The translations under genes and the position numbers were made by a program. Below, one piece after another: positions 1,938 to 56,780 of a DNA stretch of 64,000 nt. The notes below the pieces were generated by a model. It was not told the DNA's origin and did not search any database. It was given only the letters and a program-made list of their open reading frames with translations. Origin of the DNA: Nitratidesulfovibrio sp. SRB-5 (lineage in GTDB: Bacteria; Desulfobacterota; Desulfovibrionia; Desulfovibrionales; Desulfovibrionaceae). Where the stretch lies: contig NZ_JAIOTY010000001.1 in NCBI RefSeq assembly GCF_019931275.1, positions 1,116,001 to 1,180,000 on the forward strand, read 5' to 3'. Every line of letters begins with the position of its first letter. Position 1 is the first letter of the stretch.

Positions 1938-1969
1938 CCCCCGCGAGAATCGCGGGCGCTGACGGCGTC

Positions 1970-2031
1970 AAAACCGGTTTCCGCTCGGGTCATGTACCGA
2001 AGAGTACACTCCCCTCGCGGAAACCGGTTTT
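1970..2031 (+). terminator. Family-A gene-end hairpin, copy 1
   Basis: A perfect 15-bp stem (1970-1984 with 2017-2031) is followed by TTCC. It encloses a 32-nt apex (1985-2016) containing GGTCA-TGTAC-CGAAGA-GTACA-CTCCCC. The inner TGTAC/GTACA forms a 5-bp stem with a 6-nt loop. It follows the nitroreductase gene in the sense orientation. The apex differs from copies 2 and 3 at one base only, while the outer stem sequence is entirely different. Confidence 0.8.
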
Positions 2032-2104
2032 TCCTTGTCTTCGCCGCGCGCTTCTCGCGGGGGTGCCGCTGGCCGCGCGGATCGCGGGCGGTTGCTGCGT
2101 CAAG

Positions 2105-2176
2105 CACCGTTTCCGCTCTGCTGGCCGCTCGGGTCATGTACCAAAGAGTACACTCCCCTCGCGGAAATGGCGTTTT
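2105..2176 (+). terminator. Family-A gene-end hairpin, copy 2
   Basis: The outer stem TTTCCGC (2110-2116) pairs with GCGGAAA (2161-2167), with weaker pairing beyond. The 32-nt apex at 2129-2160 is the same as that of copy 3. An extra 12 nt sits between the left arm and the apex, so this copy looks partly degenerate. It shares flanks with copy 1: GCGTCAA upstream and TTTTCCTTG downstream. Confidence 0.7.
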
Positions 2177-2255
2177 CCTTGCCCTCGCCGCACGCTGCGC
2201 ACGGCCAGAAGGCCGTGATTTGACGCGCGGTTGGAAAGAATGAAGAAATGAAGTC

Positions 2256-2282
2256 GCCCCGACCGGAAGTTCCGGTCGGGGC
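2256..2282. terminator. Perfect 13-bp hairpin in the convergent spacer
   Basis: GCCCCGACCGGAA (2256-2268) pairs exactly with 2270-2282, leaving a tight loop. The rightward side continues GGTTGTCATTTG, which is moderately T-rich. It is a simple intrinsic-terminator-like structure that could serve either converging gene. It has no conserved apex. Confidence 0.65.
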
Positions 2283-2455
2283 GGTTGTCATTTGAAAACG
2301 AGAAAGAATGTAAATTGCCTCCAGGCATGGTCGGCAGGCGGAGCGGTGTTGTCCGAGGACAAGGAAAACGGCGATGCAGCGAGGGGAGGCTTCGGTATTT
2401 CTTGCAGCGGCTATACCCGACAAACGGCAGGATTTGGCCCGGCACGCAAGGAAAG

Positions 2456-2511
2456 CGGCCCCGGCGCGAGGGGAGTGTACTCTTTGGTACATGACCCGAG
2501 CGCCGGGGCCG
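2456..2511 (-). terminator. Family-A gene-end hairpin, copy 3
   Basis: A perfect 12-bp stem (2456-2467 with 2500-2511) encloses a 32-nt apex (2468-2499) that, read on the minus strand, matches copy 2. It sits 36 bp beyond the stop of the minus-strand chemoreceptor gene and reads in that gene's direction. The usual GCGTCAAA and TTTCCTTG flanks are present. Confidence 0.8.
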
Positions 2512-2547
2512 TTTGACGCAGTGGTCGCGGCCAAGGCCCGCCGTTTG

Positions 2548-4968
2548 TCAGCGCATGCGTGCCATGACGGATCGCAGCGCCTCCGCCTGCTCCGCCAGCG
2601 CGGCCACGGCCCGCGCGGCCTCGCGCATGGCGTCCACGGTCTCGCCGGAGATGCGGTCCACCTCGCCGGTCGCCCGGCTGATTTCCTCGCTGGCGGCGGA
2701 TTGCTGGGCCGCGGCGGTGGCAATGGCCCGCACCCTGTCGGCGGTTGTCACGGCAATGGTGACGATGTGCTGCAAGGTCTGGCCGGAGGCCCCGGCCAGT
2801 TCTGCGGAGCGGCCCACGTTGCGGGCGGCGTTTTCCGTGGCCTCCAGGTTGCGGGCGGCCCCGGCTCGGATGCGCGTGACGGCCTCGCCCACCTCGCGGG
2901 TGGCGCCCATGGTCTTTTCGGCCAGCTTGCGCACCTCGTCGGCAACGACGGCGAATCCGCGTCCGGCGTCACCGGCGCGGGCCGCCTCGATGGCGGCGTT
3001 CAGCGCCAGCAGGTTGGTCTGGTCGGCGATGTCCGAAATCACGTCCATGATCCGGCCAATGCCCTCCACCTGCGTGCCCAGTTCGCGCATGTCGGTGCGC
3101 AGGGCCTCTGCGTCGGCGGCCACGGCGGTGCTGGCGGCCACGGACTCGCGGGTGATGGAGGCGCCGTCCTCGGCCTTTGCGCGGGCTTCGTCGGCGCTGG
3201 CGGCGGCCTCGTCGGCGGCGCGGGCCACCTCGACCACCGATGCGTTCATCTGGTCCATGGCGCTGGCGGCCTCGCCAGCGCGGGCCTTCTGCACGTCGGC
3301 CCCGCGTTCGGCCAGTTCCACCTGGCGGGCCAGCCCGGCGGCAGCCTCTGCCACCACCTGCGAGATGCGGTCCGCCTCGACGGCCACCTCGCTGATGAGG
3401 GTGTTCTTGGCTTCCATTTCCTGCTGGTGAGCCTTGATGTCCGTCAGGTCGGCGAAGATGGAGAAGGCGCCGATGAGGTTGCCGTCCAGGTCCAGCAAGG
3501 GCGCGGTATCCAGGCGGGTATGCACTGTGCCGCCGGTGCGGCGGGACAGGGTCAGCTCCGTGTTCAGGATGGCCCGGCGTTCGCGCATGCAGCGGCCAAC
3601 CACGGTGTCGCGCCCGGACTCGCCGTAGAAGAACAGGGCAACGTCGGCGCCCAGGTGTTCGTCCGGCGTGCCGGAAACCCCCAGCAGGTCCAGCATGGCC
3701 TGGTTCACGTAGCTGATGCGGCCATCGGTATCCACCACGTAGCTCGGCATGGTCATGCCGCGCAGGATGCCGTTGGAAAAGCCCAGGCGGTGCTTGATCT
3801 CGGCCACCATGGCCCGCACGCCGCCGATGGTGCGCCCGATGTCGTCGTCGGCCAGGTAGTCGATGGCCGCGTCATAGTTGCCCTTGGCCACTTCCGCCGT
3901 GAAGCGGCGCAGGGTGCCCAGCGGGCGCGACACGGTGCGCAGCAGGCCGAACACGAAGACCAGGGCCACGCCCAGCGCCACCACGGCGATGACGGCGGCG
4001 CTCTGCAAGAGGTGCGCATCCAGCCCGTGCACCATTTCCGTGCGGGTCATGCGCACGGCCACGCGCCAGTCCCACGGTTCGAAATGGCGCACGTAGGCGC
4101 GCATGGGCACGCCGTCCATGGTATAGTCCACGGGGCCATCCTTCACGCCCTTGAAGAAGGGGCCGATGTCCGCCTCTTCAAGCGTCTTGCCGCGCAGCGT
4201 GGGATGGTGGAGGATCATGCCCGAGGCGTCGTAGACAAAGGCGTAGCCCGCACCGGCCACGCGCACCTTGTCCATCATTTCGGCAAGCTGCGGCGTGCGG
4301 ATGGGGCGGCCCACGAAAATGACGGCGATGATGGCGCCGTCTTCGTCGCGCACGGGCTTGTAGGCGGTAATGTACCAGTCATTCACCACGAAGGCGCGGC
4401 CAGAGTAGGTCTGCCCCCCCATGACCGCCTTGTAGACGGGGCTGTCTTCCGGAATATAGGTACCCACGGCGCGCTGGCCGTCCGCCGTGCGCACGTTGGT
4501 GGCAATGCGCACCAGCTTGCCGGGCAGCACCTGGAACAGGGTGGCGGCGCCGCCCGCCATCTGCTGCACGCGGTCGACCACCTCGTTGTTGTCGCGCATG
4601 GGCTTGCGGCCAAGCAGGGAATACTGGAACAGGCCGGGCATTTCGACCGTTTCCTTCTGCTTGGTGAGCTGGTTGACCACGTCGACCTTCTGCATGTCGT
4701 TTTTGCGCACCATCAGCGGGCCATCGGCCAGCAGTTGCGATTCGAACAGCGCAAGGTCGGAGGTGACCTTTTCCTGCGTGATGGCGTGCTGCATCTCGAT
4801 GGTGGAGACAAGATTGTCCGTGGCGGACTTCAGGTTGAGCTGCCCGAGGTCCACCAGGTCGCCCCGCACGACGATGGTGAGCACGATGGCCATGAAGGCC
4901 ACGGTGCTTGCCACGATGACGGCGCTGCCCAGGTAGAATTTGGTGCTGAAACGCATCCGCTGGAACAT
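2548..4968 (-). CDS. Methyl-accepting chemotaxis protein (Cache, HAMP, PAS, MCP signalling domain)
   Basis: An 806-residue transmembrane chemoreceptor. TM1 is at about residues 10-34 and a periplasmic Cache-type sensor at about 40-305. TM2 is at 321-344, HAMP at 345-395 and a cytoplasmic PAS at about 400-510. The MCP signalling hairpin is at about 530-800, with the conserved tip around [18 protein letters not shown] at 649-666. The start [11 protein letters not shown] is preferred to an ATG 41 codons upstream because it places TM1 at the N-terminus and has GGGGGG just upstream. Family role: ligand-dependent control of the CheA kinase and so of motility. The added PAS suggests a second, internal redox or energy input. 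No che gene is adjacent. The ligand cannot be inferred. Confidence 0.93.
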
Positions 4969-9272: not shown

Positions 9273-9390
9273 GTGTCCTCCGTGAGTGTGCGTGGGGATG
9301 GCATAGCGTATGGGCGGCAGGGGGGGAAGGGGGGACAGGGGGACAGGGGGACAGGGAAAAGAGAGGGTTGCGCTATTGCACACCCGGCAT

Positions 9391-9634
9391 CTACGAAGGC
9401 AGTTGCGCCCCGGTGATCACGCCCGATCTCGTCATGCCTCCGGCGGGCAGGGGGCTGGCGCGTTGATGGGCACGGCCTCTACGAAGACAGTTGCGCCCTG
9501 TTTACCACGCCCGATCTCGTTATGCCTCCGGCGGGTGGGGGGCTGGCGTGTTGATGGGCACGGCCTCTACGAAGACAGTTGCGTCCTGTTTACCACGCCC
9601 GATCTCGTTATGCCTCCGGCGGGCAAGGGGCCAT
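9391..9634 (-). repeat. Family-D tandem repeat, three units of 88 bp
   Basis: Units begin at 9391, 9479 and 9567 with CTACGAAG-CAGTTGCG and run through CACGCCCGATCTCGTTATG and CCTCCGGCGGG to TTGATGGGCACGG. Units 2 and 3 are nearly the same; unit 1 is more diverged; unit 3 is truncated and joins the hairpin at 9623-9652. Two further units lie in inverse orientation at about 10708-10865. Confidence 0.85.
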
Positions 9635-9652
9635 TGAACGATGGCCCCTTGC
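9623..9652 (-). terminator. Family-D hairpin with CCGCCGGAGGC tail, copy 1
   Basis: A perfect 12-bp stem, GCAAGGGGCCAT with its complement (9623-9634, 9641-9652), has a 6-nt loop. Read on the minus strand it is followed by CCCGCCGGAGGCATAACGA. The same tail follows different stems at 10708 and 51293. Confidence 0.7.
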
Positions 9653-10305
9653 ATCCCCGCGTTCCAGGGGCTGCGCCCCCTGGACCCCCGGCGTTTCTTG
9701 CACCGCATTCTTACGCCTGGCAGCTTCCCTGCGGCGCTGGCGCACCTCGGGCGATCTGCCCGGCGGAATGCGAATGTGCATATATCTCTCGTAGTCTTGG
9801 CAAAGGTCCGGGGTGTGCCCTTGCCGTTGCGCGGTTTGCGGTGCACCCGCAACGCCGGAGCTTCCGCCGTCGCGAAGCCTCCGGCGGCGATCTCCGGCTG
9901 CGGGCGCAATCCGCGCGGATGTTGCGCTTTGTCTGGGGAGTTTGGCGCCTTGCAGGACGCACAGGTGCATCAGATATGAATTGCTGTCCAGTTCTTGCCT
10001 GAGTGATGACGTTCACTGTTTTATCATGTTTGTAGGTTAGAGGCGCGGGAAACCTGTGTGCGGCGATACCTATCCGTAGCCGGAGATTGTCACCGGAGGC
10101 TTTGCGACGGCGGACGTTTTGGATGTATGGGGGCGTGGGGGATATGGTCGGATTTTCATGCGGTGTTCAGAGGAAACGTCTCGTGCGTAGAAGCGTATGA
10201 CGCCGGGTTTTTACGGCGGCACATGCGTCGCAACGAGGGCGTGGGTAGTGGCATCTTCGTTGTGCGATGCCAGCGGGAGCCATGCGCGCATCCGCATTCA
10301 GTCGG

Positions 10306-10640
10306 GCAGATCGCCCGAGGCGCGCCAGCGCCGCAGGGAAGCTGCCCGGCGTAAGAATGCGGCGCAGGATAAGCGCGGTTGAGGCAACTGCGTGTGGTTG
10401 TGCCTGCGAGAGCGACGTACGCATTGGCGCCACCGGCGGCAGATCACCCGAAGGCGCCAGCGCCGCAGCGAAGCTGCCCAGCGTAAGAATGCGGCGCACT
10501 ATAGACGTGGTTGAGGCAACTGCGTGTGACTGTGCCTACGAGAGTGATGTATGCATTGGCGTCACCGGCGGCAGATCACCCGGAGGCGCTCTGCGCCGAA
10601 GGGAAGCTGCCGCCGAAGGGACGCCGCGTATGAAACGTCG
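10306..10640 (+). repeat. Family-E tandem repeat, about 2.5 units of 132-133 bp
   Basis: GCAGATC-CCCG recurs at 10306, 10439 and 10571. Each unit continues with GCGCCAGCGCCGCAG, GAAGCTGCC, GTAAGAATGCGGCGCA and GGTTGAGGCAACTGCGTGTG. The last unit degenerates after GAAGCTGCC. A single inverted copy lies at about 9695-9780. Confidence 0.8.
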
Positions 10641-10677
10641 GGGGTTCCAAGGGGCGGAGCCCCTGGAACGCGGGGGT

Positions 10678-10725
10678 GCAGGGGGTGTTCGTTACAACAC
10701 CCCCTGCCCGCCGGAGGCATAACGA
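10678..10725 (+). terminator. Family-D hairpin with CCGCCGGAGGC tail, copy 2
   Basis: GCAGGGGGTGTT (10678-10689) pairs perfectly with 10696-10707 around a 6-nt loop. It is followed by the tail CCGCCGGAGGCATAACGA. A second hairpin with AGGGGCGGAGCCCCT lies just upstream (about 10650-10670). Confidence 0.7.
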
Positions 10726-10865
10726 AATCGAGGGTGGTCAACGAGGCGCAACTGTCTTCGTAAAGGCCCAACCCATCAACGCACACCCCGTCCCCCTTGC
10801 CCGCCGGAGGCATAACGAAACCGGGCGTGGTCAATAACGCGCGACTGTCTTCGTGGAGGCCGGGT
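10708..10865 (+). repeat. Family-D tandem repeat, two inverted units
   Basis: These two units, about 90 bp each, are the reverse complement of the units at 9391-9634. CCGCCGGAGGCATAACGAAA leads to CTGTCTTCGT at 10753 and again at about 10846. They complete the mirror symmetry of the block. Confidence 0.8.
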
Positions 10866-10946
10866 GCAACAGCGCACTGCCTCTTCTTTTCCCCATCCCC
10901 ATCTCCTTTCCCTTTCCCCTTCCCAACACCGACCACCAAACAACAA

Positions 10947-16589: not shown

Positions 16590-16732
16590 GTGCTGTCCTC
16601 TGACGCCCGCGCGGGGTGCTTCGGGCAATCGTGATATGCGTTGTGAGGCCGTGGTGTCTGGCTTGGCGCTTGCGCGGAGGGCATTTCTGCCTTTCTGCTG
16701 CAATGCGCGATCTCAGCCGCGAAGGGAGTTTC

Positions 16733-16823
16733 GGTTCCGGCAAGGAAGGCGAGGGGCGGCAAGGGGAGCGTACTCTTCGGTACGTGACCCGCGCCGCCTC
16801 CGATGCCTGACGATGCCGGAACC
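16733..16823 (-). terminator. Family-A gene-end hairpin, copy 4 (guaB/guaA spacer)
   Basis: The outer stem GGTTCCGGCA (16733-16742) pairs with 16814-16823. An inner stem (16751-16760 with 16793-16800) encloses a 32-nt apex at 16761-16792. On the minus strand the apex reads GGGTCA-CGTAC-CGAAGA-GTACG-CTCCCC. The inner stem is CGTAC/GTACG instead of TGTAC/GTACA, a compensated change. It lies 16 bp past the guaB stop, in guaB orientation. Confidence 0.8.
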
Positions 16824-16838
16824 GGAAATACCGAGCGG

Positions 16839-18299
16839 CTAGTTGTTGTCGATGCGGTAGTTGGGCGATTCCTTCGTGATGATCACATCATGCACGTGGC
16901 TTTCGCGAAGCCCCGCCGCGGATATCTCCACGAACTGCGCCTTTTCCTGCAATTCCTTGATGTCCGCCGCGCCCACGTAACCCATGCCGGAGCGCAGGCC
17001 GCCCACCAGCTGGTACAGGCTTTCGGCCACCGGGCCCTTCACGGGCACGCGGCCCACGATGCCTTCGGGCACCAGCTTCTTGCTCTTTTCCTGGAAGTAG
17101 CGGTCGGAGCTGCCTTCCTTCATGGCGTCGATGGAACCCATGCCGCGATAGATCTTGTACGAGCGGCCCTGGTAAAGAATGGTTTCGCCCGGGCTTTCGT
17201 CGGTGCCCGCGAACAGGCTGCCGATCATCACGGTATCCGCGCCCATGGCGATGGCCTTGACCACGTCGCCCGAGAACTTCACGCCGCCGTCGGCAATGAC
17301 GCAGCGGCCAAGCTCTCGCGCGGCGCGCACGGATTCGAGGATGGCGGTCACCTGGGGCACGCCCACGCCCGCCACGATGCGGGTGGTGCAGATGGAGCCG
17401 GGGCCGATGCCCACCTTCACGGTGTCGGCGCCCGCCTTCAGGATGCCCTTGGCCCCTTCGTAGGTGGCCACGTTGCCCGCCACCAGCTGGCACTTGGGAA
17501 AGGCGCCCTTGACCATCTCGATGGCGCGCAGCACGTTGCGCGAATGGCCGTGGGCCGAATCCAGCACCAGAAAGTCCACGCCCGCGCCCAGCAGGGCGCC
17601 CGCGCGCTCTTCGCAGTCCTTGCCGATGCCGATGGCCGCACCCACGCGCAGGCGACCGTTATCGTCCTTGCACGAGTTCGGGTACTTCTGGACCTTGTCG
17701 ATGTCCTTCATGGTGATGAGGCCCTTCAGGCGATTGCCCTCGTCCACCACCAGCAGCTTTTCGATGCGGTGCGCGTGCAGCAGGTCCTTGGCCTCGTCCA
17801 GGGTGGTGCCCACGGGCACGGTGACCAGGTTCTTGCTGGTCATCACCTCGCGCACCTGGGTGCCTTCCAGGTCCTTGACGAAGCGCACGTCGCGGTTGGT
17901 CAGGATGCCCACCAGTTCCACCCCGCGCACCACCGGCAGGCCGGAGACGCGGTATTCGGCCATCAGCTCCAGGGCCTGGCGCACGGAATAGTCGGGGTCG
18001 ATGGTCACGGGGTCGATGATCATGCCGCTTTCGGACTTCTTGACCTTTTCGACCTCGATGCGCTGGCGATCCACGGGCATGTTCTTGTGGATGACGCCGA
18101 CACCGCCGTTGCGGGCCATGGAGATGGCCATGCCGGAATCGGTCACGGTGTCCATGGCGGCGCTGAGCAGGGGAATGTTGAGGCGGATTTCGGGGGTGAG
18201 CCAGGTGGAGACGTCCACGAGGTCGGGGGTGACTTCGGAATAGCCGGGCTGCAGCAGGACGTCGTCGAACGTCAGTGCCTTGCACACGATCTTGCTCAT
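16839..18299 (-). CDS. guaB: Inosine-5'-monophosphate dehydrogenase
   Basis: A 486-residue IMP dehydrogenase of normal length, committing IMP to guanine nucleotides by NAD-dependent oxidation to [26 protein letters not shown] opens the barrel. Two CBS motifs (about 95-205) form the regulatory Bateman module. The catalytic Cys is in [11 protein letters not shown] and the flap region around [10 protein letters not shown] is intact. GGAGAGAG precedes the ATG. A sigma70 promoter lies at 18433-18462 with a palindrome at 18403-18420, giving a leader of about 125 nt. It is followed by a family-A hairpin and then guaA. Confidence 0.98.
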
Positions 18300-55023: not shown

Positions 55024-56652
55024 ATGGCAGGGGAGAAAACCCCCGGAAAGAAGCCCCCCCGCAAGGATGACGCCAAGGGGGGCACGGGACGCAAGCCCGC
55101 CCAATCGGGCCAGTCGGATAAATCAGGCAAGTCGGGCAAATCGGGCAAGCCGTCGGGAACATCCGGATCGCGGCGTTCCGGCGGCAAGCGCGGCAAGCCC
55201 ACCCTGACGCCGCTGGTGGCGCGGGCCGTGCTGGCCATTTGCGTGGCCGCCACGCTGCTGGTGATGCTGTTGTTCGTGTTCGGTTCGCCGGTGAAGCAAT
55301 TCACGGACAGCGGCGCGCGCAAGCCCGCCGTGGCCGAAAAGAGCGACAGGAAACCGCAAGCCCCGCAGCCGGGGCAGAAGCCGCAGAAGGGCGAGCCGAA
55401 GCGCGGGGAGCAGGCCGAACTGCCCCAGCTTCCCCAGTTTCCCCAACTGCCCCAAACCCCGGTGGGTGATGCGCCCAGGGGAGAGGCCGCAACCGACCAG
55501 GCAAAGGGCGATGCCGATGCCGATGCGTCGCAGCCTGCCCAGCCCGAACGCGCGGCCAACGGCAAGCCCGCTCCCGCTGACACGGGCGGGGCGGACGGCG
55601 AGGTGCGCCAGCCGGTGACCCCCGGCAACCTGCCGTACGAAGAGACCCTGGACGCCCCCGTGGAGGCGGGCGTGAAGCAGGTGGACTACGCCCTGGTCCA
55701 GACCGTGACCCGCCTGGGCCTTGGCCGCGACCGGCTGCGCCTGGCGTCCATCGAAAACCGCCAGGCCAAGGGCCAGACCTTCCACTTCCAGCGCATGGAA
55801 ATGCGGCTGGACGGCGCGCCCGACCGCTTCGTGCAGACCCTGAAGGAAACGCTGGCCGCCTGGTCCGATACCGCCAACGTCGAGCAGCGGGCCGACGACC
55901 TGCTCATCGTCACCGTGGACGGCCTGCCCACCCACGAGATTTCGCTGCTGCTCTACGAGGGGGCGCCGCCCCCCGTGGCCGTGGCCCCGGGCGGGGCGCG
56001 GCTGGCCATCGTCATCGACGACATTGGCGAAAGCATGTCCGCCGCGCGCGACCTTGCCGCGCTGGACTACCCGGTGACCTTCTCCGTCTGGCCGCGCAGC
56101 ACGCACGCCCGCGAGGCAGCGGAGCTTGCCCACAAGGCCCGGCGCGAGGTGATGATCCACCTGCCCATGGAGCCCGTGCGCTACCCGCAGGTAAAGCCCG
56201 GCCCCGGCGCCATCCTGTCCGGCCAGCAGCCGCAGGAAATGGCCGCGCTGGTGCGCGATGCCGTGCGCCGCGTGCCCTACGCCGTGGGGCTGAACAACCA
56301 CATGGGCTCGCGCGCCACCCAGAATGCGGCGGCCATGCGCACCGTGTGCGAAGCCCTTGACGGCACCGGCATGTTCGTGCTCGACAGCATGACGCATCCC
56401 GCATCGAAACTGTACTTCGAGGCGAAGCGCGCGGGACTGCCCGCCTACAAGCGGAACGTGTTCCTCGACGTCATCGCCGACAAGCGCAACATAATGTTCC
56501 AGTTGGACAAGGCGGCCCGCATCGCGCAGGCCGAGGGGCAGGCCATCGCCATCGGCCACCCCCTGCCGGAAACCGTGGCCGCCCTGAAGGAGTGGGCGCG
56601 GACGCGGGATCGCACGGTTACCATCGTAACCGTCCGGCAACTCGTCCATTGA
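55024..56652 (+). CDS. Divergent polysaccharide deacetylase (YibQ-like), membrane-anchored
   Basis: 542 residues. A basic Lys/Ser/Gly-rich N-terminus with KSGKSGKSGKPSG repeats precedes one membrane helix (about 66-87). A 110-residue Pro/Gln/Glu linker (PQLPQFPQLPQ) follows. The NodB-like domain lies at about 320-540, with LAIVIDDIGESMSAARDL carrying the paired Asp residues, MIHLPMEP, NNHMGSRATQ, DSMTHPASKLYFEAKRAGLP and GHPLPET. AGGAG precedes the ATG. The family is common in proteobacteria downstream of envC and ctpA, as here. Enzymatic activity is not proven for it, though the Asp-Asp/His motif is retained. Confidence 0.92.
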   Translation: MAGEKTPGKKPPRKDDAKGGTGRKPAQSGQSDKSGKSGKSGKPSGTSGSRRSGGKRGKPTLTPLVARAVLAICVAATLLVMLLFVFGSPVKQFTDSGARKPAVAEKSDRKPQAPQPGQKPQKGEPKRGEQAELPQLPQFPQLPQTPVGDAPRGEAATDQAKGDADADASQPAQPERAANGKPAPADTGGADGEVRQPVTPGNLPYEETLDAPVEAGVKQVDYALVQTVTRLGLGRDRLRLASIENRQAKGQTFHFQRMEMRLDGAPDRFVQTLKETLAAWSDTANVEQRADDLLIVTVDGLPTHEISLLLYEGAPPPVAVAPGGARLAIVIDDIGESMSAARDLAALDYPVTFSVWPRSTHAREAAELAHKARREVMIHLPMEPVRYPQVKPGPGAILSGQQPQEMAALVRDAVRRVPYAVGLNNHMGSRATQNAAAMRTVCEALDGTGMFVLDSMTHPASKLYFEAKRAGLPAYKRNVFLDVIADKRNIMFQLDKAARIAQAEGQAIAIGHPLPETVAALKEWARTRDRTVTIVTVRQLVH

Positions 56653-56653
56653 T

Positions 56654-56780
56654 CACGCTGCGTTCTTTCGCCCTCCGGCGGCGTCGGACGTCGCCTTTTA
56701 CTCCGGTCACGTACGTCTTGGTACGCTCCCTTCGTAAAAGGCTTGTCCTCCTTGCCGGAGAACGAAATCTCCGCAGCGTG
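56654..56780 (+). terminator. Family-A gene-end hairpin, copy 5, with extended outer stems
   Basis: Nested stems are CACGCTGCG (56654-56662 with 56772-56780), CTCCGGC (56673-56679 with 56754-56760) and GCCTTTTAC (56693-56701 with 56734-56742). They enclose a 32-nt apex (56702-56733): TCCGGTCA-CGTAC-GTCTTG-GTACG-CTCCCTTC. The 6-nt loop differs from the other copies but the inner CGTAC/GTACG stem is retained. It begins 2 bp past the deacetylase stop. Confidence 0.82.

Follow-up and report, generated by a model that had tools for sequence, protein, structure and literature searches.

Palindromic elements behind stop codons in Nitratidesulfovibrio, a likely family of mini-insertions

The YPAL elements of Yersinia insert closely downstream of stop codons, and the attC sites of integrons, whose structure is more conserved than their sequence, lie behind the stop codon in the orientation of the gene. 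As portrayed in one source (PMC2229807), YPAL is a palindromic mini-insertion of ~168 bp that is known from empty and filled sites and is expressed with the upstream gene; its termini are given there without TA, and its target duplications measure 3 to 26 bp. The same source presents ERIC, RUP, and Correia/NEMIS as small, hairpin-forming elements with TA at the termini and terminal inverted repeats, the ends of RUP matching IS630-Spn1 (PMC2229807). The GTAG and CGTC REPs appear in PMC3733652 as dispersed palindromes of 20 to 40 bp with tagged ends, mostly downstream of coding regions; those of the CGTC type are credited there with 8- to 9-bp stems, 4- to 5-nt loops, mostly a CCA tail, and no known dedicated transposase. 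YPAL, ERIC, RUP, and REPs are the closest known kinds to the element considered here. No earlier description of this element family was found in the literature searched, which leaves out most subscription papers, and the word Desulfovibrio is absent from PMC2267715, PMC3733652, and PMC12306157.

The window, a 64,000-nt stretch of the Nitratidesulfovibrio sp. SRB-5 genome, contains five hairpins to which the first-pass annotation, made from the letters of the window, had ascribed an apex of 32 nt. The apex was found in all five and has exactly this length in each (Table 1). The motif GTAC-N6-GTAC occurs five times in the window versus a mean of 0.06 in 100 shuffles, which rules out a chance origin. 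When folding was compared to that of shuffled sequences, z-scores of −6.9, −1.7, −5.4, −5.9, and −6.6 were obtained for copies 1 to 5. Thus, four of the five copies fold far better than shuffled sequence; copy 2 is the weak one, probably because of ~12 extra nt in its 5′ arm. The hairpins as annotated are real but represent only the core of a larger element of ~125 nt, which begins 0 to 2 nt past a stop codon. The four well-bounded copies are 122 to 128 nt long, and elements exceed ~125 nt when a second hairpin is nested in them. Element ends derived from MFE folding were too noisy for use. Rfam covariance models at the gathering score gave no match in the window and, on 17 foreign loci, matched only two tRNAs and one tmRNA.

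Table 1. Positions of the five elements and of a terminator-like hairpin in the window.
Feature	Position	Strand	32-nt apex	Remarks
Copy 1	1938..2063	+	1985-2016	Whole element; starts at the first base past TAA (1935-1937) of the nitroreductase-family gene 1113-1937; outer arms CCCCCGCGAGAA/TTCTCGCGGGGG
Copy 2	2072..2206 (ends approximate)	+	2129-2160	In tandem, behind copy 1
Copy 3	2420..2547	-	2468-2499 (minus strand)	Starts directly after TGA (2548-2550, minus strand) of the chemotaxis-receptor gene ending at 2548
Copy 4	16717..16838	-		Directly after TAG of the IMP dehydrogenase gene 16839-18299 (minus strand)
Copy 5	56654..56780	+		One base past TGA of gene 55216-56652 (divergent polysaccharide deacetylase); apex loop GTCTTG
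Terminator-like hairpin	2255..2283			Between convergent genes, outside the elements; consensus match only

From the center outward, a typical copy shows a loop of 6 nt closed by a 5-bp stem (TGTAC or CGTAC), then an internal loop of 3 × 3 nt (TCA/CTC), GG/CC, another small internal loop, ~10 to 15 bp of middle stem, a third internal loop (GCGTCA/TTCCTTG), and finally the outer stem, which starts no more than 2 nt from the stop codon. The flanks GCGTCA and TTCCTTG, initially taken to be shared by all copies, are so only in part: copies 1 to 3 have the former, in place of which copy 4 has TCGTCA and copy 5 has GCGTCG, and the latter is found in copies 1 to 4 and replaced by CTCCTTG in copy 5. 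The arms are self-complementary and mostly unrelated to each other; the first-pass annotation had called the outer stems unrelated, but copies 1 and 2 have TTTCCGC/GCGGAAA in common. These two copies look like a tandem duplication because in four relatives (G001, G004, G005, and G007) both flanks of the pair align to overlapping DNA of a single copy. Terminal arms vary between subfamilies and are shared within one subfamily. The constancy claimed for the apex holds for the five copies of the window but not genome-wide, where loop length differs and a second hairpin may sit inside. A separate hairpin of ~50 nt (CGGTCGCCATCCGTAAGGCTC...; L081:467-521 and, in the window’s own genome, G000, C3:168370-168477 and C1:1232870-1232972) is dispersed alone and is also seen nested in the element apex or, reversed, in the 5′ GCGTCA loop; its presence varies between orthologous copies (C2:495268 and C1:741874).

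A first covariance model, built from nine copies, gave 69 matches in the window’s genome at E ≤ 1, of which 60 remain at E ≤ 0.01. All seven other members of the genus that were searched, among them Desulfovibrio sp. A2 (G004), Nitratidesulfovibrio liaohensis XJ01 (G006), and the MAG Rs511_bin20 (G001), contain 46 to 79 matches each at E ≤ 0.01. Another genus is represented by G015, with 32 matches; G010 gave one marginal match, and 20 other genomes of the family and order gave none in the same search. When strict filters were applied to the window’s class, matches were found in 37 of 297 genomes, belonging to one family only and to 8 of 53 genera; per-genome copy numbers from this class-wide search are lower bounds, with the best 18 candidates scored per genome. 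Copies in the window’s own genome are dispersed, single or in small tandem groups. Window positions 9384-10899, largely devoid of called genes, match many places in the four genus relatives searched (~74 to 96% identity over 180 to 520 nt) and possibly belong to a second, longer dispersed repeat family.

The core is not confined to this class. A pattern search of species genomes returned at least 118 stretches with the core. Among the 80 of these matches that were listed, most come from gut Clostridia (Borkfalkia, Coproplasma, Gallimonas, Scatosoma, and Pumilibacter), and alpha- and gammaproteobacterial, Myxococcales, Verrucomicrobia, and Seleniivibrio records also occur among them. A second covariance model, applied to 20 pattern-positive genomes, detected 1 to 74 copies in each at E ≤ 0.001. 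Scatosoma pullicola has 74, Seleniivibrio has 6, and G316 has just one; one MAG each of Clostridia, Lysobacterales, Myxococcales, and Verrucomicrobia has 34, 30, 15, and 5, respectively. The core in other taxa is thus mostly multicopy, and it mostly lies directly behind stop codons. Two Clostridia loci (G304:C3:49293-49648 and G302:C58:10591-10952) carry tandem runs of three copies with a spacing of ~147 to 151 nt. Viral contigs yielded two pattern matches. One is within a gene and probably due to chance; the contig IMGVR_UViG_3300006045_001033 (L219:4892) carries a copy with the Desulfovibrio-type CGAAGA loop.

To relate the elements to genes, we used a home-made codon-usage caller trained on two sure genes (the genome is high-GC). 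Each of the five window copies reads in the direction of the gene upstream of it, in agreement with the first-pass annotation, and placement relative to genes is non-random in every larger set. In the window’s own genome, the upstream gene is on the same strand for 65 of 69 matches and the core lies 30 to 52 nt past the stop codon in 51 of 69; several of the exceptions to this spacing are later tandem copies or copies whose 5′ loop contains a second hairpin. For G005, 1.2 Mb chosen without regard to the elements was examined: all 38 matches follow a same-strand gene (5 of 43 matches, with E above 0.05, were left out), none is inside a called gene or between divergent genes, and the core is 30 to 52 nt past the stop codon in 30. 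The collections from other taxa comprise 134 pattern matches, including four loci (L105, L145, L158, and L177) from three Nitratidesulfovibrio-type genomes. For 25 of the 134, no upstream gene was called, and these were left out; of the remaining 109, 96 have a same-strand gene before them, with the core 30 to 70 nt past the stop codon in 71 of the 96. In a Clostridia MAG, a tmRNA gene (2198-2559) is found upstream of two copies (L122:2823 and L122:2986), a setting that is among the few in which copies do not follow a same-strand protein gene.

Stop codons at the elements of this genus differ from those elsewhere. In the DNA examined from the window’s genome and G005, TGA, the stop codon that contains no TA, is used at 9 of 81 elements versus 360 of 1014 other called genes (p = 2e-6), which supports a role of TA at the insertion site in this genus. 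In other taxa, TGA is not depleted (24 of 74 at elements versus 204 of 670; p = 0.79), so the TA targeting discussed below may not be general. A CTAG target, suggested by the TAG stops at elements, was dropped because TAG is in any case the most frequent stop codon (130 of 225 called genes in the window’s genome and 431 of 870 in G005); therefore, the scarcity of TGA is the only stop-codon signal left. Extension of pairing through the stop codon into the coding sequence is weak, with only some positions above shuffles.

The pairing inferred from five copies also found support when many copies were aligned. Among 92 cores from many taxa, 80.0% of cells are paired versus 70.5% in shuffled controls, both sides have changed in 192 cells versus 106, and the covariation score is 0.286 versus 0.145; slid controls, too, were lower by all three measures. 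Two measures did not behave in this way: the number of pairs with a change on both sides (8 versus 8.0 in controls) showed no separation, and the number of pair types (37 versus 34.7) was reached by 29 of 500 shuffles and was also 37 at slide +2. One row of alignment A3 (L007) is out of register and was retained. The search pattern itself fixes the inner pairs, which therefore do not vary, while the free position beside GTAC is C-G in 57 cores, T-A in 33, and otherwise in 2. Over phyla, only 59.9% of middle-stem cells are paired, probably because the register of this stem varies between taxa. The loop is not conserved over phyla, there being 65 different loops in the 92 cores. When 3′ arms were swapped among 91 cores, a core’s own arm scored a mean of 6.75 versus 5.03 for foreign arms; only for 22 of the 91 was the own arm equaled by less than 5% of the foreign arms, probably because many arms are related. 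Overall, covariation supports the pairing, with two of the five measures not clearly above controls.

The two strands of the element are not equivalent. In the window’s genome, better folding of the antisense strand is seen for 50 of 51 elements with RNA parameters and for all 51 with DNA parameters; the same is true of 85 of 87 foreign cores. On the sense (mRNA) strand, the internal loops mostly oppose pyrimidine to pyrimidine, whereas the antisense strand has G-A/A-G arrangements, which we take to be of the sheared tandem type.

Element sites were compared among relatives. A FlgE/F/G-type flagellar gene ends in a bare stop (CTAG or ATAG) in G004, G006, and G007, with the next possible start ~20 bp away. 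In the window’s genome and G001, the same site is filled with an element of the ~187-nt type containing a second hairpin in the apex; in G002, G003, and G005, a different element occupies the same place, apex-less in G002 and with the second hairpin in its 5′ loop in G003. Of the 69 sites in the window’s genome, 30 could be placed with both flanks in the relatives’ DNA examined, and most of these are occupied in some form (an earlier comparison with 0.4 Mb of G007 had located one site). Clean empty sites were found in G005 at C2:1546388 and C1:641055, and apex-less remnants at C1:515468 and C2:516069. At C1:294425, G005 has no element. The site C2:1587909 is empty in G005, yet G005 has a copy on the stop of the convergent gene, in the direction of that gene, and at C1:1230902, G007 seems to hold an additional element at the same stop. 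At L358, two left ends on neighboring genes are each located on the stop codon of their own gene. Both junctions clearly carry TA in two cases, C1:641055 and the convergent-gene copy of G005, while junctions are blurred at C2:1546388 and at the flagellar-gene site; right-hand junctions are blurred at two of the three clean empty sites. At the positions of copies 1 to 4, each of the four relatives examined has an element, the outcome expected of a host function, which argues against mobility. Since relatives show empty sites, different elements at the same stop, and apex-less remnants, the element nevertheless appears to be mobile. A protein, a small RNA, or a mobilization mechanism had been proposed to recognize the apex; these comparisons of sequence favor mobilization, and no protein or RNA partner was found.

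We searched for a mobilizer among two types of transposase, Y1 and IS630-type DDE_3, and among neighboring genes. Y1_Tnp has no match in six of the eight genus genomes (G002 to G007, with 46 to 72 copies each), of which three are incomplete drafts and G004, G005, and G007 are 99% complete. G001 has a partial match, and the only Y1-type match of the window’s genome (G000:C1:239748-240005) contains an internal TGA, so this gene is likely dead. The IS630-type DDE_3 domain (PF13358) is present in only 1 of 25 genomes tested, G015, and absent from all seven genus members tested and from nine element-bearing genomes of other taxa. Both Y1/RAYT and IS630 were rejected as mobilizers, as their distribution does not follow that of the element. 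Beside foreign copies, the widest protein cluster is an ABC transporter, found at 16 of 120 loci. The 8 of 25 listed neighbor clusters that were scanned contain transporter, AAA ATPase, queuosine, TGT, and SRP54 families (three of the eight have no family) and no transposase; they look like housekeeping or transporter neighbors, and a partner gene beside foreign copies was thus discarded. Nor did 138 matches in five genomes reveal an autonomous element bearing the ends of the best-defined subfamily, TAGGGGCTGTNTCNAAATTG. Facing ends are 129 to 358 bp apart; up to a limit of 5 kb, there is a single wider pair (1126 bp, G000:C2), which takes in two ordinary genes, and both of these have a left end at their stop codon.

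Elements also prefer one replication strand. In G007, GC skew in 20-kb samples flips sign at 0.5-0.7 Mb and 2.6-2.8 Mb, and 47 of 61 placed elements are on the leading strand compared to 51% of sampled genes (p = 3e-5; 1 of 62 matches was left out, its replichore being unclear). In the G005 DNA, where the skew is positive throughout, 32 of 38 elements are on the leading strand compared to 54% of genes (p = 1e-4). This bias suggests insertion via single-stranded DNA, probably at the replication fork, but could instead stem from a preference for highly expressed genes.

Four other explanations have to be weighed. The elements could be structured 3′-UTR RNAs that benefit the host, are bound by a conserved protein or small RNA, and are selected at their genes. 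The sense orientation, the tight spacing to the stop codon, the covariation, a core common to distant taxa, and the uniform filling of the copy 1 to 4 sites all fit such a role. It is made unlikely by the gain and loss of other sites between related species, by the superior structure of the antisense strand rather than the mRNA, by the patchy occurrence within the class under strict filters, and by the mixed functions of the ten host genes tested, which include genes for a nitroreductase, a chemotaxis receptor, IMP dehydrogenase, YbaB, and a type II/IV secretion ATPase. Intrinsic terminators with a decorated loop would likewise be expected at gene ends in this orientation, and many copies of the genus have a short T-rich stretch (TTTTCC or TTTCC) after the middle stem. 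That stretch sits within the 3′ arm of the element, and many, though not all, foreign copies have no T-run there. One copy occupies a site with only ~20 bp between the stop and the next possible start in relatives. Terminator-like hairpins are found further downstream at the two places examined: one in the window (Table 1) and a T-run hairpin at C1:294425 that the filled site shares with the element-free site of G005. In E. coli, a terminator a few base pairs behind a gene is reported to be almost completely repressed (PMC4824070). The element is thus probably not the terminator, in line with the doubt expressed in the first-pass annotation as far as these places go, and we give the terminator explanation very little weight.

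Still less credible is the view that these are REP/REPIN-type repeats moved by a RAYT (Y1) transposase. They are palindromic, dispersed, and downstream of genes, and the GCGTC of the 5′ arm resembles the CGTC-tagged REPs, but stem, loop, and tail are unlike those of CGTC REPs and Y1_Tnp is missing, stop-bearing, or partial across the genus, as detailed above. We regard as the most improbable of all that they are attC-like sites of integron gene cassettes. An imperfect palindrome with variable arms, directly behind the stop and oriented with the gene, would be expected of such sites; at the compared empty and filled sites, however, the gene stays and the hairpin alone comes and goes, and copies are scattered over the genome, single or in small tandem groups.

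Together, the data make it likely that the hairpins belong to a family of non-autonomous palindromic mini-insertions of ~125 nt that are moved to stop codons. An enzyme encoded elsewhere would recognize the folded single strand through the conserved apex and internal loops, while the arms could vary provided that pairing is kept; in this genus, the enzyme would insert the element at the TA of the stop codon, duplicating TA. A more far-reaching version, which we advance only tentatively, is that of a structure-recognized single-stranded DNA element present in several phyla, placed by an enzyme at stop codons of genes co-directional with replication, whose active form would be the antisense hairpin with its G-A internal loops and whose shape would be conserved more than its sequence. 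In the mRNA, the hairpin abuts the stop codon and may slow ribosome release in the manner of E. coli REPs; ribosome stalling has been reported for REPs no more than 15 nt from a stop codon (PMC12306157). By this analogy, ribosome stalling would be the likeliest effect on hosts, in which dozens of genes per genome bear a strong hairpin exactly where the ribosome stops.

The best reading of the family as a whole is that of new stop-codon-targeting palindromic mini-insertions working like Yersinia YPAL. A widespread family is thereby added to a poorly understood class, and the core shared across taxa, the strand asymmetry, the leading-strand preference, and the stop-codon targeting provide directly testable clues to how repeats without a transposase move. 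Like YPAL and RU-2, the element is palindromic, has both empty and filled sites, and is located just behind stop codons; unlike them, it measures ~125 nt, has TA at some of its junctions and varying arms, and shares its core with distant taxa. With the TA-type MITEs (ERIC, RUP, and Correia/NEMIS), it has in common its small size, hairpin formation, and TA junctions at some sites, but its terminal arms differ between subfamilies instead of forming constant terminal inverted repeats, and the IS630-type DDE_3 domain expected from the RUP case is absent from the seven genus members tested. It resembles REPs in consisting of dispersed palindromes mostly downstream of coding regions, and CGTC REPs in that no dedicated transposase was found for it; it departs from REPs in its length of ~125 nt, its usually 6-nt loop, and its several conserved internal loops, and from REP/RAYT systems in that the distribution of RAYT does not match its own. 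As in attC sites, structure is conserved over sequence behind the stop codon and in gene orientation, but at the sites compared, no gene cassette moves with the element.
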